A stretch of DNA of 64,000 nucleotides, taken from positions 62,001 to 126,000 of the forward strand of contig NZ_BMWE01000019.1 of NCBI RefSeq assembly GCF_014651075.1, in the 5' to 3' direction. Below are positions 1 to 11,089 of the stretch, piece after piece (within the stretch, counting starts at the first letter, position 1; the number at the start of each line of letters is the position of its first letter). This DNA comes from Streptomyces djakartensis (GTDB lineage: Bacteria; Actinomycetota; Actinomycetes; Streptomycetales; Streptomycetaceae). The notes under the pieces were generated by a model. It saw only the letters and a program-made list of their open reading frames with translations, searched no databases and had not been told where the DNA came from. A program made the position numbers and the translations under genes.

Positions 1-3000
1 GTCGAGGGCGACCGCGCGCACGCGGGCCAGCAGCGCGGTGAAGGCGGGGTCTCCGGACAGGTCGAGGCGCAGCGCGAGCGTGTTCACGAAGAAACCGAGC
101 AGGTGCTCGGCCCGTTCGGGGCGGTCCGAGATCGGGGTGCCGACGACGATGTCCGTCTGTCCGGTGACGCGGTGCAGCGTCGCCGCGTAGCCGGCGAGCA
201 GGGTCATGAACAGGGTGCCGCGGCTGTTCCTGCTCAACTCGCGTAAGCGGCTGGAGAGTTCCGGGTCCAGGGTGTGGAAGACCGCACGGCCGTTGGAGGT
301 CATCCGCGACGGGCGCGGCCGGTCGGTGGGCAGCGCCAGGACGGGCAGCTCGCCGCCCAGGATGCGGCGCCAGTACGCCAGGTCCTCCTCGGTCCCGCCG
401 CCGCTCGCGGACGCCGCCTGTTCGCGGGCGTGGTCGGCGTAGCTGAAGGTGAGGGCCGGGAGGCGGGGGGTGCCGCCCTCGCGTTCGGCCCGGTAGAGGG
501 CGGACAGGTCGCGGGCGAGGACGGTGGCGGAGGCCGCGTCGACGACGATGTGATGGAGGGAAAGGACGAGGACGTGCTCCGCGTCGGCGAGCCTGACCAG
601 CCGGGTGACGAACAGCGGGCCGTCCGCCAGGTCGAAGCGGCGTGCGCTCTCGGCCGACAGGACGTCGTGGAGAACGGTCCGTGGGTCGCCGGTGGCGTCC
701 ACGAGTTCGAAGTCGGGTTCGGCGGAGGCCCGCACCACCTGCCGGGGCTCGCCTCCCAGCTCCCGGAAGACCGTGCGCAGGCCCTCGTGCCTGGCGACGA
801 GGCCGCGCAGCGCCACCCGGAGCGCGGGCACGTCGAGGGGGCCGTCGAGACGTACCGCCTTGATCTCGTTGTAGGCGGTACGGCCCGGGAGCAGTCGCTC
901 CAGGAACCAGATCCGTTCCTGGCCCGGCGACAAGGGGGCGTCGGCGGGGGCGGGTCCGGCGGCCGAGGGTGCGGGGCCGGCCGGTGGGCGCTCCGGCGTC
1001 GTCGTCTCGGGTGCCGCGCCGGCAGCGGACGGATGCCGGTAGTGGCGGCGCAGGGCGTCCAGGTGTGAAAGGCCGGCGCGCAGTTCGTGCGCCGCGACCC
1101 CGAAGTCGACGAGCGCCACGATCTCGTCGGCTCCCGCCGCCGTCACCGCGTCCACCACCGGGCGGACGCTGTCCGCCGTGCCGATGAGGGCGCGCTGGTC
1201 GCAGTAGCGGCCGTAGGCGCGGCGGAACACCGTCTCCAGGTCGTCCTCGCTGAGCGCGGCCAGGTCGACGCTGTGCCCCAGGCTGTTGGTGACGCCGCTG
1301 AACAGGGACAGGGACGCGCGCATGTAGCGGGACAGCGGTTCGTACGCCTCCGTGCGCGCGGTGTCGCGGTCCGCGGCCAGGTAGGTGTGGAGCAGGACGG
1401 CCACCCGGCCGGTGTCCGGGTCCAGGCCGTGGCGGGCCCGGGTGCTCCGGTAGCGGGTGATGTTCTCCTGGAGCTGTTCGACGGTCTGGGTCATCAGGTT
1501 GGTGACGACACCCAGGTCGTGGCGGGCGGCCAGTTCGTACGAGGCGGGGTTGGCGACCACGGCGGTGTACAGGGGCGGGGCGTCCTGCACGGGCCGTGGG
1601 AAGAGCCGCAGGCCGGCCTCGCCGTCACCGGTGGTGCGGCGCACGGCGTCGCCGCGCCAGAACCTTCGTACCTCCTGCAGCTGCTCGTACATCAGCTCCT
1701 TGTGCCGGCCGAAGCGGTCGGGGAAGAAGGCGAAGTCCTTGGCGCTCCAGCCACTGGCGACGCCGATGCCGACCCGTCCGCCGGAGAGGTTGTCCACCAT
1801 CGACCACTCCTCGGCGACCCGGATCGGGTCGTGGAGGGGCAGGACGACGGAGCCGGCGTTGAGACGGATGCGCTCGGTCTCCCGGGACAGCGCGGCCGCG
1901 AGCACGGCCGGGTTGGGGAAGAGGCCGCCGAAGGAGTGGAAGTGGCGCTCCGGCATCCAGAGCGCGTGGAAGTCGTGCCGGTCCGCGAACCGGGCGACCT
2001 CCATGAGGAGTTCGTACTGGCCCTGGCGGGGGGCGGAGGTGTCCTGTGGGTAGTCGCCGAAGAAGTAGACGCTGAAGTCGGGTGTGCGCGGGGTGACTTC
2101 CTTCACGGCGTGCGTGCGCGGGGCGGATGCGGCCGCGGCGTTCCAGGCCATGGCGGCCACGGGGGTGGCGGCCGGTGGCTGCGGGCGCGGTGGGGCCGAG
2201 GCGGTGGATGCCGGTCGCGGAGGCGTGGACGGGGCCGGTGCCGGTGGCGCTGTAGTGGCCTCGGGCGGGGTCGGCCGCGGTGGCGCGGGCACGGTGGGTA
2301 CCGGCCTTCGTTGCGCTGTCCTCGGGGCCACCGGTGGCGTGCCCGGGAAGAAGCCCGCCGACCGCAGCTCGCGCAGCGAGTCCCGTACGGCGTCGGCGAT
2401 GAACTCGATGTCCGAGTCCGCGTGGGCGGTGGACAGGAAGAAGTTGCGCCACTCCCAGACGTGCACGCCGCGCAGCATCAGGTGGTGGTAGAGGAGCTCC
2501 ATGTCCGCGCGGTGCTCGAAGCGGAACTGCGAGCCGAAGTGGGTCATGCGCAGCGGGTACTCCTCGGCCTCGAAGAAGCCGTTGAGCGTGGCGGCCAGTT
2601 CGGCGGTGCGCGCGTTGAGGCGCTCCTGGAGGCGTGGGCTGTGTTCCCTGAGGTGGGTCAGTACGGCGCGTGCGGCGACCATCGACACCGGATGCTGGAT
2701 GTACGTGCCCCCGAAGAAGGTGGTGTCGGCGGGCGGATAGCTGTCGTCTCCGTACGACCAGTATCCGCCGTCGACCCCGTCCATGATGTCGGCGCGGCCG
2801 GCGATCGCGCCGATGGGGAAGCCACCGCCGAGCAGCTTGCCGTAGGTGGCGAGGTCGGGGGTGACGCCGTACAGCTCCTGCGCGCCGCGCGGCGCCGGAC
2901 GGAAGCCGGTCAGCATCTCGTCGAAGAGCAGCACGATGCCGTGACGGCGGGTCAGCTCCCGCAGTCGGCGGACGAACCCGGCCGGCTGGAGCGAGGGGTG

Positions 3001-3858
3001 CCGGCTCTGCACCGGCTCCACGACGACCGCGGCGATGTCGTCGGCGTGCCGGGCGATGGTCTCCAAGGCGGTGTCGCTGCCGTAGTCGAGGACCAGCAGA
3101 TCGGAGACGGCGGCCTGCGGTATGCCCCGGGAGACGGGCACGGTGGCGGTGCCGGCGCCGCTGCCGGAGGCCCGGCCGAGGACGTTGTCGGCGTGGCCGT
3201 GGTACGCGCCGAGGAAGGTGACGATCTTGTCGCGGCCGGTGGCGGCGCGGGCGAGGCGGATGGCCGCCGAGTTGGCCTCCGTACCGGAGTTGGCGAAGGC
3301 CACCCGTTCGAGTCCGGTGAGTTCGGCGAGGAGTTCCGCCGCCTCGCCGGTCTCGACGGTGCGGGGACCGAGCTGAATGCCGCGGGACAGGTGCTCACGC
3401 ACGGCCTCCGTGACGAAGTCCGGCTCGTGGCCGAAGAGAAGAACGCCGAAGCCCATGGTGATGTCGACGTACTCGTTGCCGTCGACGTCCTCCAGACGTG
3501 CCCCGCCGGCGCGGCGGCCCGCGATCGGGTACAGCATCTCCTTGGTGCCGCTGCGGAAGCCGACGACGGCACGGCTGTCGGCCAGGACGCGGCGGTAACG
3601 CTGGGCGATCCGCTTGGAGGTGGGCGTCCTGGCGGTGTACCGGCGGACGAGGTCGTCCAGGTGCTCCTGCTGGGAGCGCGGGGAGGCGTCCCGCACCATG
3701 CCGGAGGATCTCGCGACCGTCACCCGGGGCCCGTGGACCCGCGGCGGCGGGGCCGGAGCGGCGGCCCCGCCCATCTGCTCGGCGATGCGCTGCGACAGCT
3801 CGGTCATCGCCGCCAGGTCCTGGTCCAGTGCCGCGGATATACCGCTCAGCCCGGTCAC
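1..3858 (-). CDS. Hybrid NRPS/PKS tailoring protein: aminotransferase - luciferase-like monooxygenase - condensation domain (3' end off window)
   Basis: The GTG start overlaps the upstream PKS stop by 4 bases (GTGA), so the two are translationally coupled. In order, I see an N-terminal helical segment (about residues 1-30); a PLP aminotransferase of the glutamate-1-semialdehyde type (about 75-500) with a GTEANSAAIR motif, a DEMLTGFR motif and the Schiff-base lysine in YGKLLGGGFP (K341); a P/A-rich linker; a luciferase-like monooxygenase of the natural-product subgroup (about 590-930); and an NRPS condensation domain from about 970 with intact HHIVVDA (H1102-D1107). The frame is open to base 1, and adenylation and carrier domains are expected beyond. 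By family knowledge the aminotransferase converts a beta-keto thioester to a beta-amine and the monooxygenase probably hydroxylates the alpha carbon; the condensation domain would pass the product to an amino acid. The exact product is inference. Confidence 0.9.
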   Translation of the reverse strand, partial: MTGLSGISAALDQDLAAMTELSQRIAEQMGGAAAPAPPPRVHGPRVTVARSSGMVRDASPRSQQEHLDDLVRRYTARTPTSKRIAQRYRRVLADSRAVVGFRSGTKEMLYPIAGRRAGGARLEDVDGNEYVDITMGFGVLLFGHEPDFVTEAVREHLSRGIQLGPRTVETGEAAELLAELTGLERVAFANSGTEANSAAIRLARAATGRDKIVTFLGAYHGHADNVLGRASGSGAGTATVPVSRGIPQAAVSDLLVLDYGSDTALETIARHADDIAAVVVEPVQSRHPSLQPAGFVRRLRELTRRHGIVLLFDEMLTGFRPAPRGAQELYGVTPDLATYGKLLGGGFPIGAIAGRADIMDGVDGGYWSYGDDSYPPADTTFFGGTYIQHPVSMVAARAVLTHLREHSPRLQERLNARTAELAATLNGFFEAEEYPLRMTHFGSQFRFEHRADMELLYHHLMLRGVHVWEWRNFFLSTAHADSDIEFIADAVRDSLRELRSAGFFPGTPPVAPRTAQRRPVPTVPAPPRPTPPEATTAPPAPAPSTPPRPASTASAPPRPQPPAATPVAAMAWNAAAASAPRTHAVKEVTPRTPDFSVYFFGDYPQDTSAPRQGQYELLMEVARFADRHDFHALWMPERHFHSFGGLFPNPAVLAAALSRETERIRLNAGSVVLPLHDPIRVAEEWSMVDNLSGGRVGIGVASGWSAKDFAFFPDRFGRHKELMYEQLQEVRRFWRGDAVRRTTGDGEAGLRLFPRPVQDAPPLYTAVVANPASYELAARHDLGVVTNLMTQTVEQLQENITRYRSTRARHGLDPDTGRVAVLLHTYLAADRDTARTEAYEPLSRYMRASLSLFSGVTNSLGHSVDLAALSEDDLETVFRRAYGRYCDQRALIGTADSVRPVVDAVTAAGADEIVALVDFGVAAHELRAGLSHLDALRRHYRHPSAAGAAPETTTPERPPAGPAPSAAGPAPADAPLSPGQERIWFLERLLPGRTAYNEIKAVRLDGPLDVPALRVALRGLVARHEGLRTVFRELGGEPRQVVRASAEPDFELVDATGDPRTVLHDVLSAESARRFDLADGPLFVTRLVRLADAEHVLVLSLHHIVVDAASATVLARDLSALYRAEREGGTPRLPALTFSYADHAREQAASASGGGTEEDLAYWRRILGGELPVLALPTDRPRPSRMTSNGRAVFHTLDPELSSRLRELSRNSRGTLFMTLLAGYAATLHRVTGQTDIVVGTPISDRPERAEHLLGFFVNTLALRLDLSGDPAFTALLARVRAVALD

Positions 3859-6800
3859 TTGGCCGCCTTGCCGTTGAGCCGGTCCGTCACCGAGGCGGTC
3901 TGGAGGGCGAGCAGCTGGGAGAGCTGGGACATCATCTGCAGCTGTATCTGTGATATCTGGTGGATCTTGTCGGCGAGGCCCTCCAGCTCTTCACGGGTCG
4001 CGTACCGGGGAGCGGCTGCCGTGCCGGAGGGGGCGGGTTCCGCAGCCGGCGCCGCTGCGGCGGGCTGCGCCGGCTCGGACCGCCGCGCCGGGGACTCGGT
4101 GGGCGCCGTCCCGGTACCGCCCGGCATGTGGGCGACGATGAACTCCGCGAGCCGGCGCGGCGTTCCCGTCTCCTCGAACAGCTGCCGCATCGTCACCTTG
4201 ACCTGATGTCTCTGCTCCAGCTCGCGCAGTACACTGATCATCTGCAGCGAGTCGGCACCGAGGTCGAAGAAGGACGCGTCCGCGGCGATCTGCGACGGGT
4301 CCTCGCCGAGGTGCCGGGCGGTGGCTTCGACGATGCTGTGGAGTACGCGTGCGACCGCTGCCTCTTGCTGCACCACTTCTGTTCCCTTTCTCGCTGCTGT
4401 TCTCTTGCTCAGGGGCGTCAACCGGGGCCCCGTCCAGTGGTCCTTGTGCTGGAACCGGTATCCGGGCAGCGGGATGCGTCTGCCTCCGCTGCCGGCCAGG
4501 AGTGCCTCCCAGCCGACGTCCACTCCGGCACAGTGCAGTTCTGCGGCCGCGCCCCAGAGCGCGCCGAGCCCGGTGCCTCGGCGCAGGGACGGCAGTACCC
4601 GCACGTCGGGCAGCGCCCGGCGGGCCAGGCCGCTGAGGGTGGTGTGCGGTCCGATCTCGAGCAGCAGGCGGGGCCGCTGTGCGCCGACGCCGCGCAGCGC
4701 CTTGTCGAAACGGACGGGCTCGCGGGTGTGCCGCAGGAGGTGCTCCGAGTCCGGCCTCCAGCCGGGCGGGCGGGCCGATCCGTCCAGCGCGCTGACGAAC
4801 GGGACCCGCACGGGCCGGAACTCCACGTCGTCCAGGACCTTCCGGAACTCCTCCAGCATCGGTTCCATCAGCGCGGTGTGGAAGGCGCGGGTCACCGGCA
4901 GCCGTTGCCCCGGGGTGCCGCGTTCGTCCAGCAGCGCGCACGCCCGGTCGACGGCGGCGACGGGGCCGGCGAGGACCTGGGCGTGGTCCCCGTTGGTCAC
5001 GGCCGCCTCCAGTTGGTCGACCTCGGCCGTCAGGGCGAGTGCGGCCGCCCGGTCGAGCGCCACGGCCACCATCGCGCCCGGCGCGCAGCGCCGCCGCATC
5101 AGCCGGCCGCGTCGGGTGGTCAGCCGTACGCCGTCCTCGATCGACAGAGCTCCGGCCGCGTACAGCGCGGCGTATTCCCCGACGCTGTGCGCGGTCACGG
5201 CGTACGGTTCGGCGCCTGCGTCGCGCCACAGCCGGACGAGGGCGCATTGCAGGGCGAACAGCGCCGGCTGCGCGGTGTCCGTGTCGGGCGGCACCTCGCG
5301 TGGGCCGTCCGGCAGGTCATCCGCGCACAGCGCGGTGAGCAGTGAGTCACCGGTGAGGTCGCGGTGGAGCTGGTCGCAGGTGTCGAGGACCTCGCGGGCG
5401 GCTGGGAAACGCGCGTAGAGGGCGGCGGCCATGCCGGGGTACTGGCTGCCCTGTCCGGTGAACTGGAACGCCACACGCGGGGCGCCCTCCGCGGGCTTCG
5501 TCCCGGTGGTCGCCGCCGTTCCGGCTGTTCCGGCAAGCCAGGCATCGAGGGCGTCTGCGAGGGATCGGGGGGTGGAGCCGCGGACCGCGAGCCGGTGGCG
5601 GCCGTGGGCACGGCCGAGGGCGGCGGTGGTGACCAGGTCCGCCAGGTGCGGGGCTGGTGGCCTGCGTAACCGGTCGCTGAAGGCGCGGGCGTTGTCCGCG
5701 AGGGCCTGCGGGCTGCTGCCTGACACCAGCAGTACGTCCGGCGGGGAGAACGCGCCGGTCCTGGGCGCCGGTTCGGGCGCCTCTTCCAGGATCAGATGGA
5801 CGTTGGTGCCGCCGACGCCGAGTGAGGTGAGGCCCGCTCGGCGCGGTACGCCGCTCGCGGGCCAGGGCCGTGCGGTCCTGGGGATGTAGAAGGGGCTGTG
5901 GTCGAGGTCGATGAGCGGGTTGGGCTCGCTGAAGTTCGCCATCGGCGGGATCACCGCGTGGCGCAGCACCAGCAGGGCCTTGACGAGGCCGGCGAGGCCG
6001 GAGGCGGCGTCGAGATGGCCGATGTTGGCCTTAGTGGAGCCGAGGGCGCAGTAGCCGTCGCGGTCGGTGTCCTCGCGGTAGGCGCGGGCCGCGCCGTCGA
6101 ACTCGATCGGGTCGCCCTTGAGGGTGCCGGTGCCGTGGGTCTCCAGGTAGCCGATGGTGTCCGCGCCGACGCCCGCGCGCCGCAGCGCCTGGCGGATGGC
6201 CGCGCGCTGGCCCTCGGCGCTCGGGGCGGTGAACGCCTTCTTGCCAGCGCCGTCGTTGCTGATGCCCCAGCCCCGGACGACGCCGTGGACGGTGTCGCCG
6301 TCGGCGACGGCCCGGGCCAGCCGCTTCAGTACGACGGCCAGGACGCCCGTGCCTCCCACGGTGCCGTCGGCGCGGGCGTCGAAGGCCCTCAGCCGGCCGG
6401 ACCGGGACAGGATCGATCCCTTGACGTAACGGTAGCCCAGGATCTGCGGCACATGGACGGCGGTGGCGCCGACGAGGGCGATGTCGCAGTCACCCATGAG
6501 CAGCGACTGGGCGGCCGTCTGCACACCGACGAGAGAACTGGAGCAGCCGGTCTGGAGGTTGACGGCGGGTCCGGTCAGGCCCAGTCGGTAGGCGACCCGG
6601 GTGGCCGTGAAGTCGGCTTGGTTGCCGACCGTGATCTGCATGCCGGCCGTCCAGTCGGAGACCGTGTGGGCCGGGAACACGTTGTTGAGGAGGTAGTTCT
6701 GGAACGTGTACAGGTGATATCCGGTGCTGGCGTAGACGCCGACGCGGGTGCCGTCCCGTTCGTCCGGATAGCCGGCGTTCTCCAGGGCGTGCTGGGCGCA

Positions 6801-7097
6801 CTCCAGGAACATGCGGTGCTGCGGGTCCGTGAGCCGGGCCTCGCGGGCGCTCATCCCGAAGTGCTGGGCGTCGAAGCCGGCGATGTCGTCCAGCACTCCG
6901 GAAGCGCCGACGAAGTCCTCCGCGCCGTACTCCGCGGCGGGGACGCCGGCGGCGGCCAGCTCCTCGTCGGTGAAGCGGGTGACGCAGTCCGTGCCGTCCC
7001 GGACGATCCGCCAGAGTTCCTCGGGTGTGTCGGCGCCCGGCAGCCGGAAGGCCATTCCGATGACGGCCATCCGCGGGTCCAGATCGGTGGTGCTCAT
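3855..7097 (-). CDS. Type I polyketide synthase module, KS-AT-ACP
   Basis: Single-module modular PKS of 1080 residues. The ketosynthase (about 8-440) has the active-site Cys in TGCSSSL (C185; Gly replaces the usual Ala before it) and both histidines, ETHGTGT (H321) and KANIGH (H361). The acyltransferase (about 540-840) has GQGSQYPGM, AHSVGEY (S638) and RAFH (737-740), the malonyl-type signature. The ACP (about 905-990) carries the phosphopantetheine Ser in LGADSL (S950). There is no KR, DH or ER, so the beta-keto group is left for the next protein's aminotransferase. The last ~45 residues form a Gln/Leu-rich helix that looks like a docking element. No loading domain is present, so the starter acyl group must come from another protein. 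The gene contains one TTA codon (L477). It overlaps the exporter gene upstream (ATGA) and the hybrid gene downstream (GTGA). Confidence 0.95.
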   Translation of the reverse strand: MSTTDLDPRMAVIGMAFRLPGADTPEELWRIVRDGTDCVTRFTDEELAAAGVPAAEYGAEDFVGASGVLDDIAGFDAQHFGMSAREARLTDPQHRMFLECAQHALENAGYPDERDGTRVGVYASTGYHLYTFQNYLLNNVFPAHTVSDWTAGMQITVGNQADFTATRVAYRLGLTGPAVNLQTGCSSSLVGVQTAAQSLLMGDCDIALVGATAVHVPQILGYRYVKGSILSRSGRLRAFDARADGTVGGTGVLAVVLKRLARAVADGDTVHGVVRGWGISNDGAGKKAFTAPSAEGQRAAIRQALRRAGVGADTIGYLETHGTGTLKGDPIEFDGAARAYREDTDRDGYCALGSTKANIGHLDAASGLAGLVKALLVLRHAVIPPMANFSEPNPLIDLDHSPFYIPRTARPWPASGVPRRAGLTSLGVGGTNVHLILEEAPEPAPRTGAFSPPDVLLVSGSSPQALADNARAFSDRLRRPPAPHLADLVTTAALGRAHGRHRLAVRGSTPRSLADALDAWLAGTAGTAATTGTKPAEGAPRVAFQFTGQGSQYPGMAAALYARFPAAREVLDTCDQLHRDLTGDSLLTALCADDLPDGPREVPPDTDTAQPALFALQCALVRLWRDAGAEPYAVTAHSVGEYAALYAAGALSIEDGVRLTTRRGRLMRRRCAPGAMVAVALDRAAALALTAEVDQLEAAVTNGDHAQVLAGPVAAVDRACALLDERGTPGQRLPVTRAFHTALMEPMLEEFRKVLDDVEFRPVRVPFVSALDGSARPPGWRPDSEHLLRHTREPVRFDKALRGVGAQRPRLLLEIGPHTTLSGLARRALPDVRVLPSLRRGTGLGALWGAAAELHCAGVDVGWEALLAGSGGRRIPLPGYRFQHKDHWTGPRLTPLSKRTAARKGTEVVQQEAAVARVLHSIVEATARHLGEDPSQIAADASFFDLGADSLQMISVLRELEQRHQVKVTMRQLFEETGTPRRLAEFIVAHMPGGTGTAPTESPARRSEPAQPAAAAPAAEPAPSGTAAAPRYATREELEGLADKIHQISQIQLQMMSQLSQLLALQTASVTDRLNGKAAK

Positions 7098-8353
7098 CTG
7101 TCGTGCCCCTCCGTCACCGTGGGCTGGTCACGGCCTGCCGCATCCCCCGCTGGCGGGGTGGGTCCGCCCCGCCCGGCCAGCCACACCAGCAGGGCCGCGC
7201 ACAGGACGATCGCGAGGCCGTGGAAGGCGGCCACCACCTGCAGCGGGGAGAAGTTCTCCAGGAGCGCGCCGCTCACGAGCATGCCGAGGCCGAAGCCGGT
7301 GTTCTCGGCGGAGGCGGACAGCCCGAAGAGGCGGCCACGCTGGTCGTCGGGGGCGGTCTGCAGCCTCGACACGTAGACGATCTCGGTGAATCCGTCGGCG
7401 GCTCCGGCGACGAGCGCGGCGATGACGGCGGGCACGGTCGGCATCCCGCTGAAGACCATGATGAACCCGGCCGACATCACGCAGGCGCCGAGCGCGAAGG
7501 CCCGCTCCCCCGGTGTCCGCCCGGATTTCCCGGTGACCCGGCCGATCACCTGCTGGGCGACGATGTTGCCGATGGCCCAGGTGGCCCAGAACTGGCTGAT
7601 GAACGTGGCCGGGTGGTCGGGGTCCAGGCTGCTGGAGTAGATGGGCAGGGCGACGTTGTGGGACGAGGAACCCAGTCCGTCGACCGCCCGGATGGCGATC
7701 ATGGCCATCAGCAGCGGAGCGGTGCCCAGCAGCATCCGGACCGTCAGGCGCGCGGCGCCCGATGCCTTCGCTGAGTCACCGCCCGCGGCGTCCATGGCCG
7801 CCCGGGTGCGTACCGGCAGCAGGAACAGCACCGTCGCGGAGACCAGGAACGTCGCGGCGTCCAGGGCGAACGCGGCGGAGTAGCCGAGTTGCGCCACGAC
7901 CACGCCCGACGAGGCGAAGCCCGCGATCATGGCGAGCGAACGCCCCGTCACCAGCAGCCCGTTGGCCCGGACGCGGTGCTCCGCGCCGACGATCTCGGGG
8001 ATGCTGGTGCGCAGGGCCACCTGGGAGAGGGTCGAGCAGCCGCCCGTGACCACGGCCAGGACGTACAGCAGGCCGGGGCGCACGCCGTCGGGGGCGAGCA
8101 GCAGGGACAGCAGTGCCAGCGCCTGGCACAGGTCGGCGCCGACCATCAGGCGCTTGCGGTCGCAGACCGAGACGAGCCGCCCGCTCACCCAGCCCGACAC
8201 GACGCTGGTCGCCAGGCGTACGGCCATGAACAGGCCGGCGGCCAGCGCGCTGCCGGTGGCGTCGTAGACGAAGACGTTCAGCGCCACCATGTTCAGGTAA
8301 CTGCCGTACGCCGAGATGCCGTTGCCCAGGACGAGCAGACGGAAGTACCTCAT
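7094..8353 (-). CDS. MFS exporter of the polyketide/peptide cluster
   Basis: A 419-residue integral membrane protein with about 12 hydrophobic segments and the conserved basic loop after TM2 (SGRLVSVCDRKRLM). It resembles the actinobacterial MFS_3 multidrug/enterobactin-exporter-like group. A GGGAAGGTGC ribosome site precedes the ATG. Its stop overlaps the PKS start (ATGA), placing it first in the operon MFS, PKS, AMT-LLM-C, so the promoter should lie in 8354-8586. I infer export of the cluster product and/or self-protection; the substrate cannot be read from sequence. The 233-bp upstream gap shows no operator that I recognise. Confidence 0.88.
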   Translation of the reverse strand: MRYFRLLVLGNGISAYGSYLNMVALNVFVYDATGSALAAGLFMAVRLATSVVSGWVSGRLVSVCDRKRLMVGADLCQALALLSLLLAPDGVRPGLLYVLAVVTGGCSTLSQVALRTSIPEIVGAEHRVRANGLLVTGRSLAMIAGFASSGVVVAQLGYSAAFALDAATFLVSATVLFLLPVRTRAAMDAAGGDSAKASGAARLTVRMLLGTAPLLMAMIAIRAVDGLGSSSHNVALPIYSSSLDPDHPATFISQFWATWAIGNIVAQQVIGRVTGKSGRTPGERAFALGACVMSAGFIMVFSGMPTVPAVIAALVAGAADGFTEIVYVSRLQTAPDDQRGRLFGLSASAENTGFGLGMLVSGALLENFSPLQVVAAFHGLAIVLCAALLVWLAGRGGPTPPAGDAAGRDQPTVTEGHDR

Positions 8354-8586
8354 GCACCTTCCCTCGGGTCCGCACGAAGGGTGTGGCTATGGGGTCCGGG
8401 ATCGCCCTGTCGCCCCGTCGCGCGCGCCACGGGGAAGCGGCTGCGCAGGAACCATCCCCCCAATACGCCGCCGGACAGCGGCCATTGGTCCGCAACCCAA
8501 GCAGAACCGAACCGAAGCGTTCAAGACTCGGGGGTGGTCCAGACGACTTCCGGTCCGCATTTGGCGATTTCGGAGCGCCGCGGTCG

Positions 8587-11025
8587 TCAGTCCGCCGACA
8601 GGGCCTGTTCCGCCCAGATCGTCTTGCCGTGGTACGTGTGGCGGGTGCCCCATCGCTCGCACAGCTGGGCGACCAGCATGAGGCCGCGCCCTCCCTCGTC
8701 GTAGACGCGAGCGCGGCGCAGGTGCGGTGCCGTGCTGCTGGCGTCGGAGACTTCGCAGATGAGGTTGCGGTCGAGGATCAGGCGCAGCTGCAGGGGCGGC
8801 TCGCCGTACCGGATGGCGTTCGTGACCAGTTCGCTGATGACCAGCTCGGTGACGTACGCCGACTCCTCCAGACCCCACTCCTTGAGCTGCCGGTTCGCGC
8901 TGTCGCGGATCTCGGCCACCGCGGACGGTTCCGGCCGTACGTCCCAGGTGGCCACGTGGGCCGTGTCCAGGACGTGTGTGCGGGCCAGGAGCAGCGCCAC
9001 GTCGTCCGCGGGCCGGGCCGGGAGAACGTCCCGCAGGACGGTGTCGCAGGCGCTCTCCAGGGACGTGTCCGACCTGACCAGCGCCTGCAGCAGGAGGGCC
9101 ACGCCGTCGTCGATGTCGCGGCCCCGGGCCTCGATCAGGCCGTCGGTGTACAGCGCCAGCAGGCTGCCCTCGGGCAACTCGATCTCGGCCGCCTCGAACG
9201 GCAGGCCGCCGAGTCCCAGCGGGGGGCCGGCGGGCAGCTCGAGGACACGAGCCTCGCCGTCCGGGGTGAGCAGCACCGGCTCCGGATGGCCGGCGCGGGC
9301 CAGGGTGCAGCGCCGGGAGACCGGGTCGTACACGGCGTACAGGCAGGTGGTGCCGGTGTCGGGGGCGGCGCCGGGCGTGCCGTCGGTCTCCGCCGACAGC
9401 CGGTTGACCAGGTCGTCCAGATGTGTCAGCAGCTCGTCGGGAGGCAGGTCGACGTCGGCGAGGGTGCGTACGGCGGTCCGCAGCCGTCCCATGGCGGCGG
9501 AGGCCTGGATGCCGTGGCCGACGACGTCGCCGACGACCAGGGCCACGCGGGCGCCGGAGAGGGGGATGACGTCGAACCAGTCGCCGCCCACACCGACCTG
9601 CGCGCTGGCCGGCAGATAGCGGGAGGCGACTTCCACGGCGGGCTGCCGGGGCAGTCGCTGCGGCAGCAGGCTGCTCTGCAGGGTCAGCGCGGTGTCACGC
9701 TCACGGGTGTAGCGGCGGGCGTTGTCGATGCTCAGGGCGGCCCGGGCGGTGATCTCCTGGGCCAGCAGCAGATCGTCCTGCTCGAAGGGCTCGGGACGGC
9801 GGTGGCGGGAGAAGGTGGCCACGCCGAGAGTGATGCCGCGGGCGCTCATCGGCACCGCCAGCACCGAGTGGAAGCCGAAGCGCCGCACGCGTTCCGCCCG
9901 GTCAGGGGCCAGGTCCGCCCATCGGTCCACCCCGTCCGATGTGATCTGATGGATCAGTGGCTGTCCGGCGACCAGGCATTCGGCCGCGGGCGAGGTGCTC
10001 GGGTAGGTGGCGACCTCGCCCAACGGGACCACGGCCTCGGGGCAGCCCGGCAGCACCGACTGGTTGGCCACTCGCCGCAGCAGGACCGGGCTGGGGAGTG
10101 TCACGGCCCGCAGTTCCCGGTCGTCCTCGATGTCGGGAAGCAGATCCACCGTGACGAAGTCGGCAAGGTGCCCGGCGGCGACGTCGGCCATTTCCTGGGC
10201 GGTGCGGGCCAGGTCGAGGGTGGTGCCGATGCGGACGCCGGCCTCGGCGACCAGGGCGAGCCGCTGCCGGGCCTGGTGCTGTTCGGTCATGTCGTGCGCG
10301 GACAGCAGCACCCCGCGCACCACCCCGTGGTCGTCGTTCACCGGCGCCAGGGACACCGACCACACACTCTCGTGATCATGGCCGGCCAACTGCAGGGACG
10401 CCCTCAGGTGCTGCTGTTCGCCGCTGCTGAGGACCTTCAGCATCAGCTCTTCGGTGCGTTCGCCCTGCGGGTCGAGAATGAGCTCCGACACCCGCAGCCC
10501 CCGCATCTCCGCCTCGGAGAGTCCCATCACGCGTTCCATGTCGGCGTTTGCCCTGAGCAGCCGCAGCCGGGTGTCGTACAGGGCGGTGGTGCACGGCGAC
10601 TGGGTGAGCGACCAGCCGATCAGGACGTCCTCGTCGAACTCGGCACGGGTGCGTGCCACCGGTGAGACCAGCAACCACTCATGGGCGTCGCCGTCGGTTC
10701 TCCGGTTCCGCTCACGGCGGTGCGCCAGCAAGGTCACCGGGAGGACATGTCCGTCGCGGTGTCTCAGGGTCGCCGTACCGTTCCACCGCCGCATCCCGTC
10801 GAGGGATCGCAATTCGCGGGCGGGAGCTTCCCCGGCGAGCAGCACGGCCGCCGGGCGGCCGACGATCTCCGATGCCGGGTAGCCCACCAGACGGTGTGCG
10901 CCTTCGCTCCACCCGGTCACCGTGCCGCGCGCGTCCACGACGGCCCGGGCCGTGGCCGTGTCGTCGACGACCGGTACCGACTGCGGGCCCGTCCCGTCGT
11001 TTCCGGTCGTTCCTCGTCGCGGCAT
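8587..11025 (-). CDS. PAS-PAS-GAF-SpoIIE (PP2C) phosphatase with C-terminal HATPase domain
   Basis: Signalling protein of 812 residues. Two PAS-like segments (about 20-130 and 140-260) and a GAF domain (about 270-430) precede a SpoIIE-type PP2C phosphatase (GGDWFDV, GDVVGHG). The C-terminal GHKL ATPase has an N-box (ELVTNAIRYG), a G1 motif (CEVSD) and a G2-like DEGGRGLML. In Streptomyces such proteins act in partner-switching circuits, dephosphorylating anti-anti-sigma factors while the HATPase part resembles anti-sigma kinases. I chose the ATG at 11025 because AGGACG sits about 7 bases upstream; an earlier in-frame ATG at 11073 has no ribosome site. No membrane segment is visible, so it is probably cytosolic. 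It lies upstream of the exporter operon but reads in the same direction with a 233-bp gap, so it is probably separate. Confidence 0.9.
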   Translation of the reverse strand: MPRRGTTGNDGTGPQSVPVVDDTATARAVVDARGTVTGWSEGAHRLVGYPASEIVGRPAAVLLAGEAPARELRSLDGMRRWNGTATLRHRDGHVLPVTLLAHRRERNRRTDGDAHEWLLVSPVARTRAEFDEDVLIGWSLTQSPCTTALYDTRLRLLRANADMERVMGLSEAEMRGLRVSELILDPQGERTEELMLKVLSSGEQQHLRASLQLAGHDHESVWSVSLAPVNDDHGVVRGVLLSAHDMTEQHQARQRLALVAEAGVRIGTTLDLARTAQEMADVAAGHLADFVTVDLLPDIEDDRELRAVTLPSPVLLRRVANQSVLPGCPEAVVPLGEVATYPSTSPAAECLVAGQPLIHQITSDGVDRWADLAPDRAERVRRFGFHSVLAVPMSARGITLGVATFSRHRRPEPFEQDDLLLAQEITARAALSIDNARRYTRERDTALTLQSSLLPQRLPRQPAVEVASRYLPASAQVGVGGDWFDVIPLSGARVALVVGDVVGHGIQASAAMGRLRTAVRTLADVDLPPDELLTHLDDLVNRLSAETDGTPGAAPDTGTTCLYAVYDPVSRRCTLARAGHPEPVLLTPDGEARVLELPAGPPLGLGGLPFEAAEIELPEGSLLALYTDGLIEARGRDIDDGVALLLQALVRSDTSLESACDTVLRDVLPARPADDVALLLARTHVLDTAHVATWDVRPEPSAVAEIRDSANRQLKEWGLEESAYVTELVISELVTNAIRYGEPPLQLRLILDRNLICEVSDASSTAPHLRRARVYDEGGRGLMLVAQLCERWGTRHTYHGKTIWAEQALSAD

Positions 11026-11089
11026 CGCGCTCGTCCTGCCTGTAGCAAGCACGGGCCCGACGTGGCACACCATCGGACCGACATGGCAT

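Follow-up and report, generated by a model that had tools for sequence, protein, structure and literature searches.

A three-gene Streptomyces unit combining an aminotransferase and a luciferase-like monooxygenase, predicted to make a short alpha-hydroxy-beta-amino-acyl peptide

Introduction

In the available part of its description, PuwE of the cyanobacterial puwainaphycin pathway consists of one polyketide synthase (PKS) module, an aminotransferase (AMT), a monooxygenase and one nonribosomal peptide synthetase (NRPS) module, and the pathway adds to it a separate fatty acyl-AMP ligase (FAAL) with an acyl carrier protein (ACP), one more PKS module, additional NRPS modules and a thioesterase (PMC4219810). 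Here we describe a three-gene operon at the left end of a 64,000-nucleotide stretch of Streptomyces djakartensis DNA (contig NZ_BMWE01000019.1, positions 62,001 to 126,000; this whole stretch is called the window). The operon has the same order as PuwE, namely a PKS module, an AMT, a luciferase-like monooxygenase (LLM), and condensation (C), adenylation (A) and peptidyl carrier protein (PCP) domains, and its LLM is 46.8% identical to that of PuwE across 344 positions. It differs from the puwainaphycin system in that the synthetase is divided between two proteins, has one NRPS module followed by a terminal C domain, and has no loading enzyme.

The microginin (mic) synthetases, in the available text of a review (PMC12250027), also combine malonyl extension on ketosynthase (KS), acyltransferase (AT) and ACP domains with an AMT, and give a linear peptide with an N-terminal 2-hydroxy-3-amino acid (Ahda) like the one predicted here, but octanoate is loaded there by micA/micB and two to six NRPS modules are used. 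That text names a FAAL, an ACP, a KS, an AT, a second ACP (ACP2) and an AMT, and its available part does not mention a monooxygenase (PMC12250027). The loading pair of the cyanobacterial microginin and puwainaphycin systems (FAAL and ACP) is missing from the S. djakartensis unit and, where these systems have several NRPS modules, the unit has one A-PCP and a terminal C domain. We assume that the microginin synthetase has an LLM as well; the likeness to microginin is one of domain content and product type.

The AMT is most like that of MycA from the synthetase of mycosubtilin, a member of the iturin family (6kfm; 49.9% identity), which we take to be placed likewise after KS-AT-ACP. Mycosubtilin is a FAAL-loaded lipopeptide that contains a beta-amino fatty acid, and its synthetase is not known to have an LLM; the S. 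djakartensis unit has an LLM and no FAAL. Bestatin, amastatin and the microginins bind zinc through 2-hydroxy-3-amino acid warheads, and bestatin and amastatin are produced by Streptomyces. No published gene cluster for bestatin, amastatin or phebestin, and no description of an actinobacterial minimal AMT-LLM unit, was found in the literature searched. The actinobacterial unit, with three genes, no loader and a terminal C domain, is a variant of the AMT-LLM assembly lines of the PuwE/microginin type.

Results and Discussion

The operon and its domains

The three genes probably form a self-contained unit for a short alpha-hydroxy-beta-amino-acyl peptide, as judged from their domain content and homologies. 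The operon is about 12 kb long, lies on the minus strand and runs from a major facilitator superfamily (MFS) exporter through a KS-AT-ACP protein to an AMT-LLM-C-A-PCP-C hybrid protein. The genes are translationally coupled, both junctions being 4-bp overlaps (ATGA for the MFS stop and PKS start, GTGA for the PKS stop and hybrid start). The operon crosses the left edge of the window, and the contig sequence beyond this edge supplies the whole hybrid protein, the gene of which ends 3.57 kb past it. The features of the operon are as follows.

7094..8353, minus strand: MFS exporter of 419 aa, the first gene in the operon (PF07690, 112.8 bits; 87% identical to the S. chartreusis copy)
3855..7097, minus strand: KS-AT-ACP PKS protein, 1080 aa (Pfam domains; one TTA codon, at 477)
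5775..7073, minus strand: KS domain (Pfam; TGCSSS cysteine, HGTG and NIGH motifs present)
4503..5474, minus strand: AT domain (Pfam; AHSVG and RAFH motifs)
4137..4334, minus strand: ACP domain (PF00550, 56.4 bits)
1..3858, minus strand: AMT-LLM-C-A-PCP-C hybrid, first 1286 of 2475 residues, GTG start (whole gene at L015:1431-8858, minus strand, continuing left of the window)
2359..3576, minus strand: class-III aminotransferase domain of the glutamate semialdehyde aminotransferase (GSA) type (YGKLLGGG; best PDB match 6kfm)
1048..2076, minus strand: luciferase-like monooxygenase domain, MupA/Atu3671 family (TIGR04020; best PDB match PuwE, 6ket)
1..939, minus strand: first C domain, HHIVVDA, truncated at the window edge (Pfam; the A, PCP and terminal C domains come after it, outside the window)

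The sequence-only reading of the window had proposed a KS-AT-ACP protein without reductive domains, followed by an AMT, an LLM and a C domain. The domain scan of the 1080-aa protein (7097 to 3855) found each of the three domains at its proposed position and no reductive domain, and Pfam bore out the order Aminotran_3 (184.7 bits), Bac_luciferase (169 bits) and Condensation in the window part of the hybrid (3858 to 1). This domain observation is confirmed far beyond chance, the LLM reaching 429 bits against NCBIfam TIGR04020 with a cut-off of 244. On the whole 2475-aa hybrid, Pfam gave Aminotran_3, Bac_luciferase, Condensation, AMP-binding, PP-binding and Condensation, and no thioesterase or reductase domain. 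The rest of the NRPS had been expected outside the window, and it was found there with an adenylation domain, but it amounts to just one A-PCP and a terminal C, with no thioesterase. The cluster is smaller and more self-contained, and far commoner, than could be known from the window.

Distribution and conservation of the unit

A scan of named genomes confirmed 202 loci, and locus counts out of 80 refer to the best-scoring 80 of these. The 40 loci with the nearest LLMs (L028-L067) came from Streptomyces (39) and Streptosporangium (1). Among the best 80, 31 have the order MFS, KS-AT-ACP and AMT-LLM-C-A-PCP-C (among them L063, truncated by a contig end on either side). Eight others have AMT-LLM and a KS, no AMP-ligase, and the last C outside the hybrid frame; these include L036, in which the terminal C is off-frame through frameshifts in the draft sequence, and L106, in which KS and AMT share one frame and no AT match was obtained. 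AMT-LLM is also present in 17 loci that are cut or differ in arrangement, and six are other or cut. An AMP-ligase is present in 18 overall, together with both AMT and LLM in three. None of the 80 loci comes from S. olivoreticuli, the species through which a link to bestatin was considered, and the clusters listed for one strain in PMC12472026 come with too little detail to show such a link. S. viridochromogenes DSM 40736 carries a copy of the operon.

Within the genus, TIGR04020 was matched at E <= 1e-60 in 92 of 246 sampled genomes. The AMT model was matched with at least 631 bits in 27 of 121 genomes (window genome counted), and the LLM follows the AMT directly in 26 of these 27, the last match being at a contig end (compared by eye). 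In 17 of the 121 genomes (16 plus the window genome), the unit had the three-gene form and its hybrid included the terminal C, one copy being split into several frames (L114) and one cut at contig ends (L128). Non-standard matches included a terminal C in another frame (L129), a locus cut after the AMT (L130) and one with the same order and no AT match (L138).

Comparison with S. chartreusis showed that the three genes are 87%, 78% and 79% identical (MFS, PKS and hybrid, respectively), and no neighbour common in place was found within about 15 kb on either side of the unit. Flanking open reading frames (ORFs) were also compared over 52 loci (ORFs of at least 90 aa, E 1e-20, families in at least six loci; some loci are truncated by contig ends, and L047 lacks its upstream flank, as a stray weak LLM match was absorbed into the core), and no family occurred in more than 10 loci. 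Pairwise distances of the KS, AT, AMT, LLM, C, A and terminal C domains over 39 loci were correlated with r of 0.92-0.97, and these seven domains have therefore travelled together. The unit stands alone: its three genes are conserved, with neither loading enzyme nor thioesterase among them, and its flanks are variable.

The aminotransferase and the monooxygenase

The best PDB match of the AMT is the mycosubtilin synthase AMT (6kfm, 441 bits), and the domain is 54.2% identical to the AMT of a Planktothrix FAAL/PKS/NRPS cluster. It is thus a MycA-type class-III AMT, located between the ACP and the LLM, and it keeps the lysine of YGKLLGGG, which we take to be the lysine that binds pyridoxal phosphate. 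The LLM in turn is located between the AMT and the C domain. TIGR04020 had 22 matches in this genome, of which the window LLM is the only one above the cut-off, and the best PDB match is PuwE (6ket, 345.7 bits), followed by a match of 111 bits. Since the AMT is nearest to the mycosubtilin AMT and the LLM exceeds the family cut-off and is nearest to PuwE, a 2-hydroxy-3-amino-acyl unit would be the best reading, and one well supported by homology. In the available part of the report on floridanemamide and tychonamide, an aminotransferase-monooxygenase pair is tied to the 3-amino-2-hydroxy motif (PMC13252402).

An LLM tree was built from 36 of 83 loci, chosen by hand, and was rooted on the PuwE side; in an earlier tree, five luciferase-like paralogues from the same genome had very long branches and distorted the root, and the tree was rebuilt without them. 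The 17 Streptomyces-type rows around the window formed one branch (support 100/98), and the AMT-bearing rows did not form a single clade (3 changes). A stray position or lost active-site residues, both considered in the sequence-only reading, were not encountered: the window LLM fell inside the natural-product LLM tree, and 67 positions were invariant over 84 sequences including PuwE.

The LLM may act on the beta-ketoacyl chain, with hydroxylation before amination, because LLMs without an AMT sit behind KS-AT-ACP in 15 of the 80 loci. C-2 of a beta-ketoacyl chain is its reactive position.

These 15 loci, with AMP-ligase and LLM and no AMT, are L078, L079, L087, L090, L091, L093-L098, L101, L103, L104 and L107, and this sister line may make alpha-hydroxy-beta-keto acyl peptides. 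An S. aurantiacus plasmid (L019:2079-19478) encodes an AMP-ligase-ACP-KS-AT-ACP-LLM-C-A-PCP-C protein without an AMT. Near it are MFS genes, and also genes of a phosphonate set (PEP mutase, phosphonopyruvate decarboxylase, split transketolase and class-IV aminotransferase); this line is perhaps a relative that includes a phosphonate. Within the genus, TIGR04020 matched best at L108-L111, which lie on the PuwE side of the tree, and in these the LLM is flanked by two partial A-domain matches and is apparently inserted within an adenylation domain. A Planktothrix agardhii plasmid (L018:1-29341) carries a FAAL, an ACP and KS-AT-ACP-AMT-C-A-PCP, with no LLM seen, adjoining DISARM defence genes.

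Priming of the ketosynthase

The KS keeps the cysteine in TGCSSS as well as HGTG and NIGH, which we take as the marks of an active cysteine and an elongating type, and the RAFH motif of the AT presumably indicates malonyl-like specificity. A starter-loading enzyme had been expected from the sequence-only reading. In the sister clusters an AMP-ligase stands before the KS; neither this unit nor the examined flanks contained one, nor any other loading enzyme, and we infer for this reason that the KS is primed from coenzyme A (CoA) or ACP pools. Amastatin- or bestatin-type units would result from isobutyryl-, isovaleryl- or phenylacetyl-CoA as starter, and none of the three starters is favoured by the data. 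The structures of the Streptomyces aminopeptidase inhibitors bestatin, amastatin and phebestin fit phenylacetyl- or isovaleryl-CoA plus malonyl by this chemistry. In a single Streptacidiphilus locus (L077), to which no weight is given, a transketolase-domain gene, likely for the E1-beta subunit of a branched-chain keto-acid dehydrogenase, lies about 1.1 kb downstream.

A lipopeptide-type or larger product, for which a separate acyl-AMP ligase would load a fatty acid onto the KS and another NRPS would receive the chain from the terminal C, appears quite improbable. The AMP-ligase in 18 of the 80 loci would agree with it, as would the NRPSs on other contigs of this genome, but the only relative of the sister AMP-ligase here is weak and distant (29% identical). 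The flanks of the 31 complete loci contained no AMP-ligase or further A domain over a median of 3.7 kb upstream and 5.5 kb downstream (at least 3 kb upstream in 29/31 and at least 5 kb downstream in 29/31), the only match of the domain queries outside the unit being the stray LLM in L047. The lack of any in-place neighbour common with S. chartreusis within about 15 kb also argues against such a partner.

Amino acid selection and release

The ten-residue code of the A domain, mapped to GrsA numbering, could be read in 73 loci; it is DALILGVVLK in 26 of them and differs slightly in the other members of the three-gene family. We take this code to resemble those for branched aliphatic residues, and a branched aliphatic amino acid would probably be the substrate, although this assignment is weak. 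The best PDB relative of the domain by sequence is the LgrA A domain.

The terminal C domain keeps HHSACDG (an intact HHxxxDG) and occupies the last position in the assembly line, as do releasing terminal C domains of the VibH/glidonin type. It is a unit acting after the PCP, because it is a separate protein in several relatives and, in L069, the one checked by Pfam, this protein has an N-terminal TubC docking domain. An AlphaFold2 model (ma7fe51ed1a19) had a mean pLDDT of 92.3, and its closest folds were elongation-type C domains, with a PCP-C didomain at Z 42.9 (root-mean-square deviation 2.5, 418 aligned) and LgrA at Z 42.1 (2.3, 405 aligned); HtmB2-CT, CmnI and SgcC5 were also matched, in a search that does not separate acceptor-using, cyclising and hydrolysing C types or the X-domain family. 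In the available part of the work on glidonins, a terminal C was shown to add free putrescine, so that a terminal module there joins the peptide to a free amine, but its C sits in a module with further domains (PMC10587159). A shortened terminal C without the catalytic histidine can recruit a flavoprotein, according to the part available of another account (PMC8149447); the terminal C studied here is neither shortened nor without this histidine. We favour release onto a free amine or amino acid rather than by cyclisation. In a Streptacidiphilus locus (L074:14285-15076), a thioesterase-family gene lies between the hybrid and a stand-alone terminal C.

Proposed route and evidence against it

In the route that we propose, the KS would draw on the CoA or ACP pools of primary metabolism for a short acyl group and join it to malonyl on the ACP. 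By comparison with close homologues, the ACP-bound beta-ketoacyl chain would then be hydroxylated at C-2 by the LLM and aminated at C-3 by the AMT to a 3-amino-2-hydroxy-acyl thioester. The first C domain would couple this chain to a single amino acid that the A domain loads, probably a branched aliphatic one, the terminal C would release the dipeptidyl product by transfer to a free amine or amino acid, and the MFS protein would export it.

Several points weigh against this route. Priming from CoA is an argument from absence, and the flanks in most loci cover a few kb. In the AMT-LLM systems of the literature, as far as the available texts describe them, the acyl group is loaded by a fatty acyl-AMP ligase or comes from an alpha-keto-acid starter, and neither is present in this unit. 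In the window AT, the nucleophile elbow reads AHSVG, and every other locus in which this motif was read has GHSxG (loci with an unmatched pattern or a cut domain were not taken as motif loss), so the window copy could have a weakened AT. The amino-acid assignment depends on the resemblance of the A-domain code to those for branched aliphatic residues. Seven of the 121 genomes (L131-L137) have a related AMT-LLM-C-PCP-C hybrid in which the A-domain query had no match, and the line is thus not fixed; in six of these genomes, the sequence read around the hybrid has a separate A-domain match, which may serve in trans. The LLM is not always paired with an AMT, and since it occurs without one in 15 of the 80 loci, homology alone does not fix its reaction. 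Lastly, cyclisation and hydrolysis are further possible activities of terminal C domains, according to the available part of one account (PMC11546977).

An LLM with another reaction, either oxygen insertion into a C-C bond or action at a different site, leaving a plain beta-amino acid or a rearranged chain, would match these AMT-less loci and the chain-shortening oxidations credited to the calyculin and mandelalide LLMs in the accessible text on those pathways (PMC8739492). We regard it as very improbable, as PuwE, the closest solved relative (46.8%), has the same neighbours and is tied, in the part of the literature available, to a 3-amino-2-hydroxy product.

Release by cyclisation of the fungal TqaA type, in which the free 3-amino group would attack the aminoacyl thioester to form a seven-membered 1,4-diazepane-2,5-dione with no outside acceptor, is unlikely in our judgment. 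It would account for a unit without a gene for an amine or a second amino acid; fungal terminal C domains, in the same partly available source, cyclise with a terminal amine (PMC11546977), and HtmB2-CT, a C-terminal domain, is among the close folds, although no activity for it was found in the literature searched. However, the nearest folds are ordinary elongation C domains, and the terminal C is separate in some relatives (with the docking domain in L069), as in enzymes that recruit another partner. Transfer to an outside amine or amino acid therefore stays our preferred reading of the release step.

Minimal AMT-LLM lines form a family with some member in 26 of 121 Streptomyces genomes and the three-gene form in 17 of 121. 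It is possible, although doubtful, that the three-gene form, primed by acyl-CoA, acting with the LLM first and the AMT second, and releasing its product through the terminal C, is the missing route type for bestatin-like aminopeptidase inhibitors, as linear 2-hydroxy-3-amino-acyl dipeptidyl amides or tripeptides. A conserved cassette of about 12 kb, present in a sizeable share of Streptomyces, can be cloned whole, making its chemistry and products directly testable, and it is a minimal system for KS priming without a loading enzyme and for the order of the LLM and AMT.

Regulation and neighbouring genes

The operon has two TTA codons (PKS codon 477 and hybrid codon 1205), and TTA codons are present in 21 of 33 other complete loci. 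A TTA at KS-relative codon 468 is common to 8 of these 33 and, as far as the numbering shows, to the window copy. TTA codons are a pointer to bldA control. Two features lie upstream of the MFS gene.

8354..8586, no strand: intergenic stretch 5' of the MFS gene, putative promoter region (ORF map and sequence)
8587-11073, same direction as the operon: PAS-GAF-SpoIIE-HATPase regulator gene

We infer that the operon promoter must be within 8354..8586, unless the operon is cotranscribed with the SpoIIE-type gene. In S. chartreusis, a 53.5% relative of this regulator lies about 12 kb past the unit.

A larger cluster extending leftward with further adenylation domains was considered and rejected. The gene that comes next after A-PCP-C, in the same direction, encodes a GH64 beta-1,3-glucanase (L013:15065-16324), and it is not part of the unit, because its family was found at 10 of the 52 loci, including that of the window. 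The unit occurs in several genomic settings, and this family is a marker of one of them.

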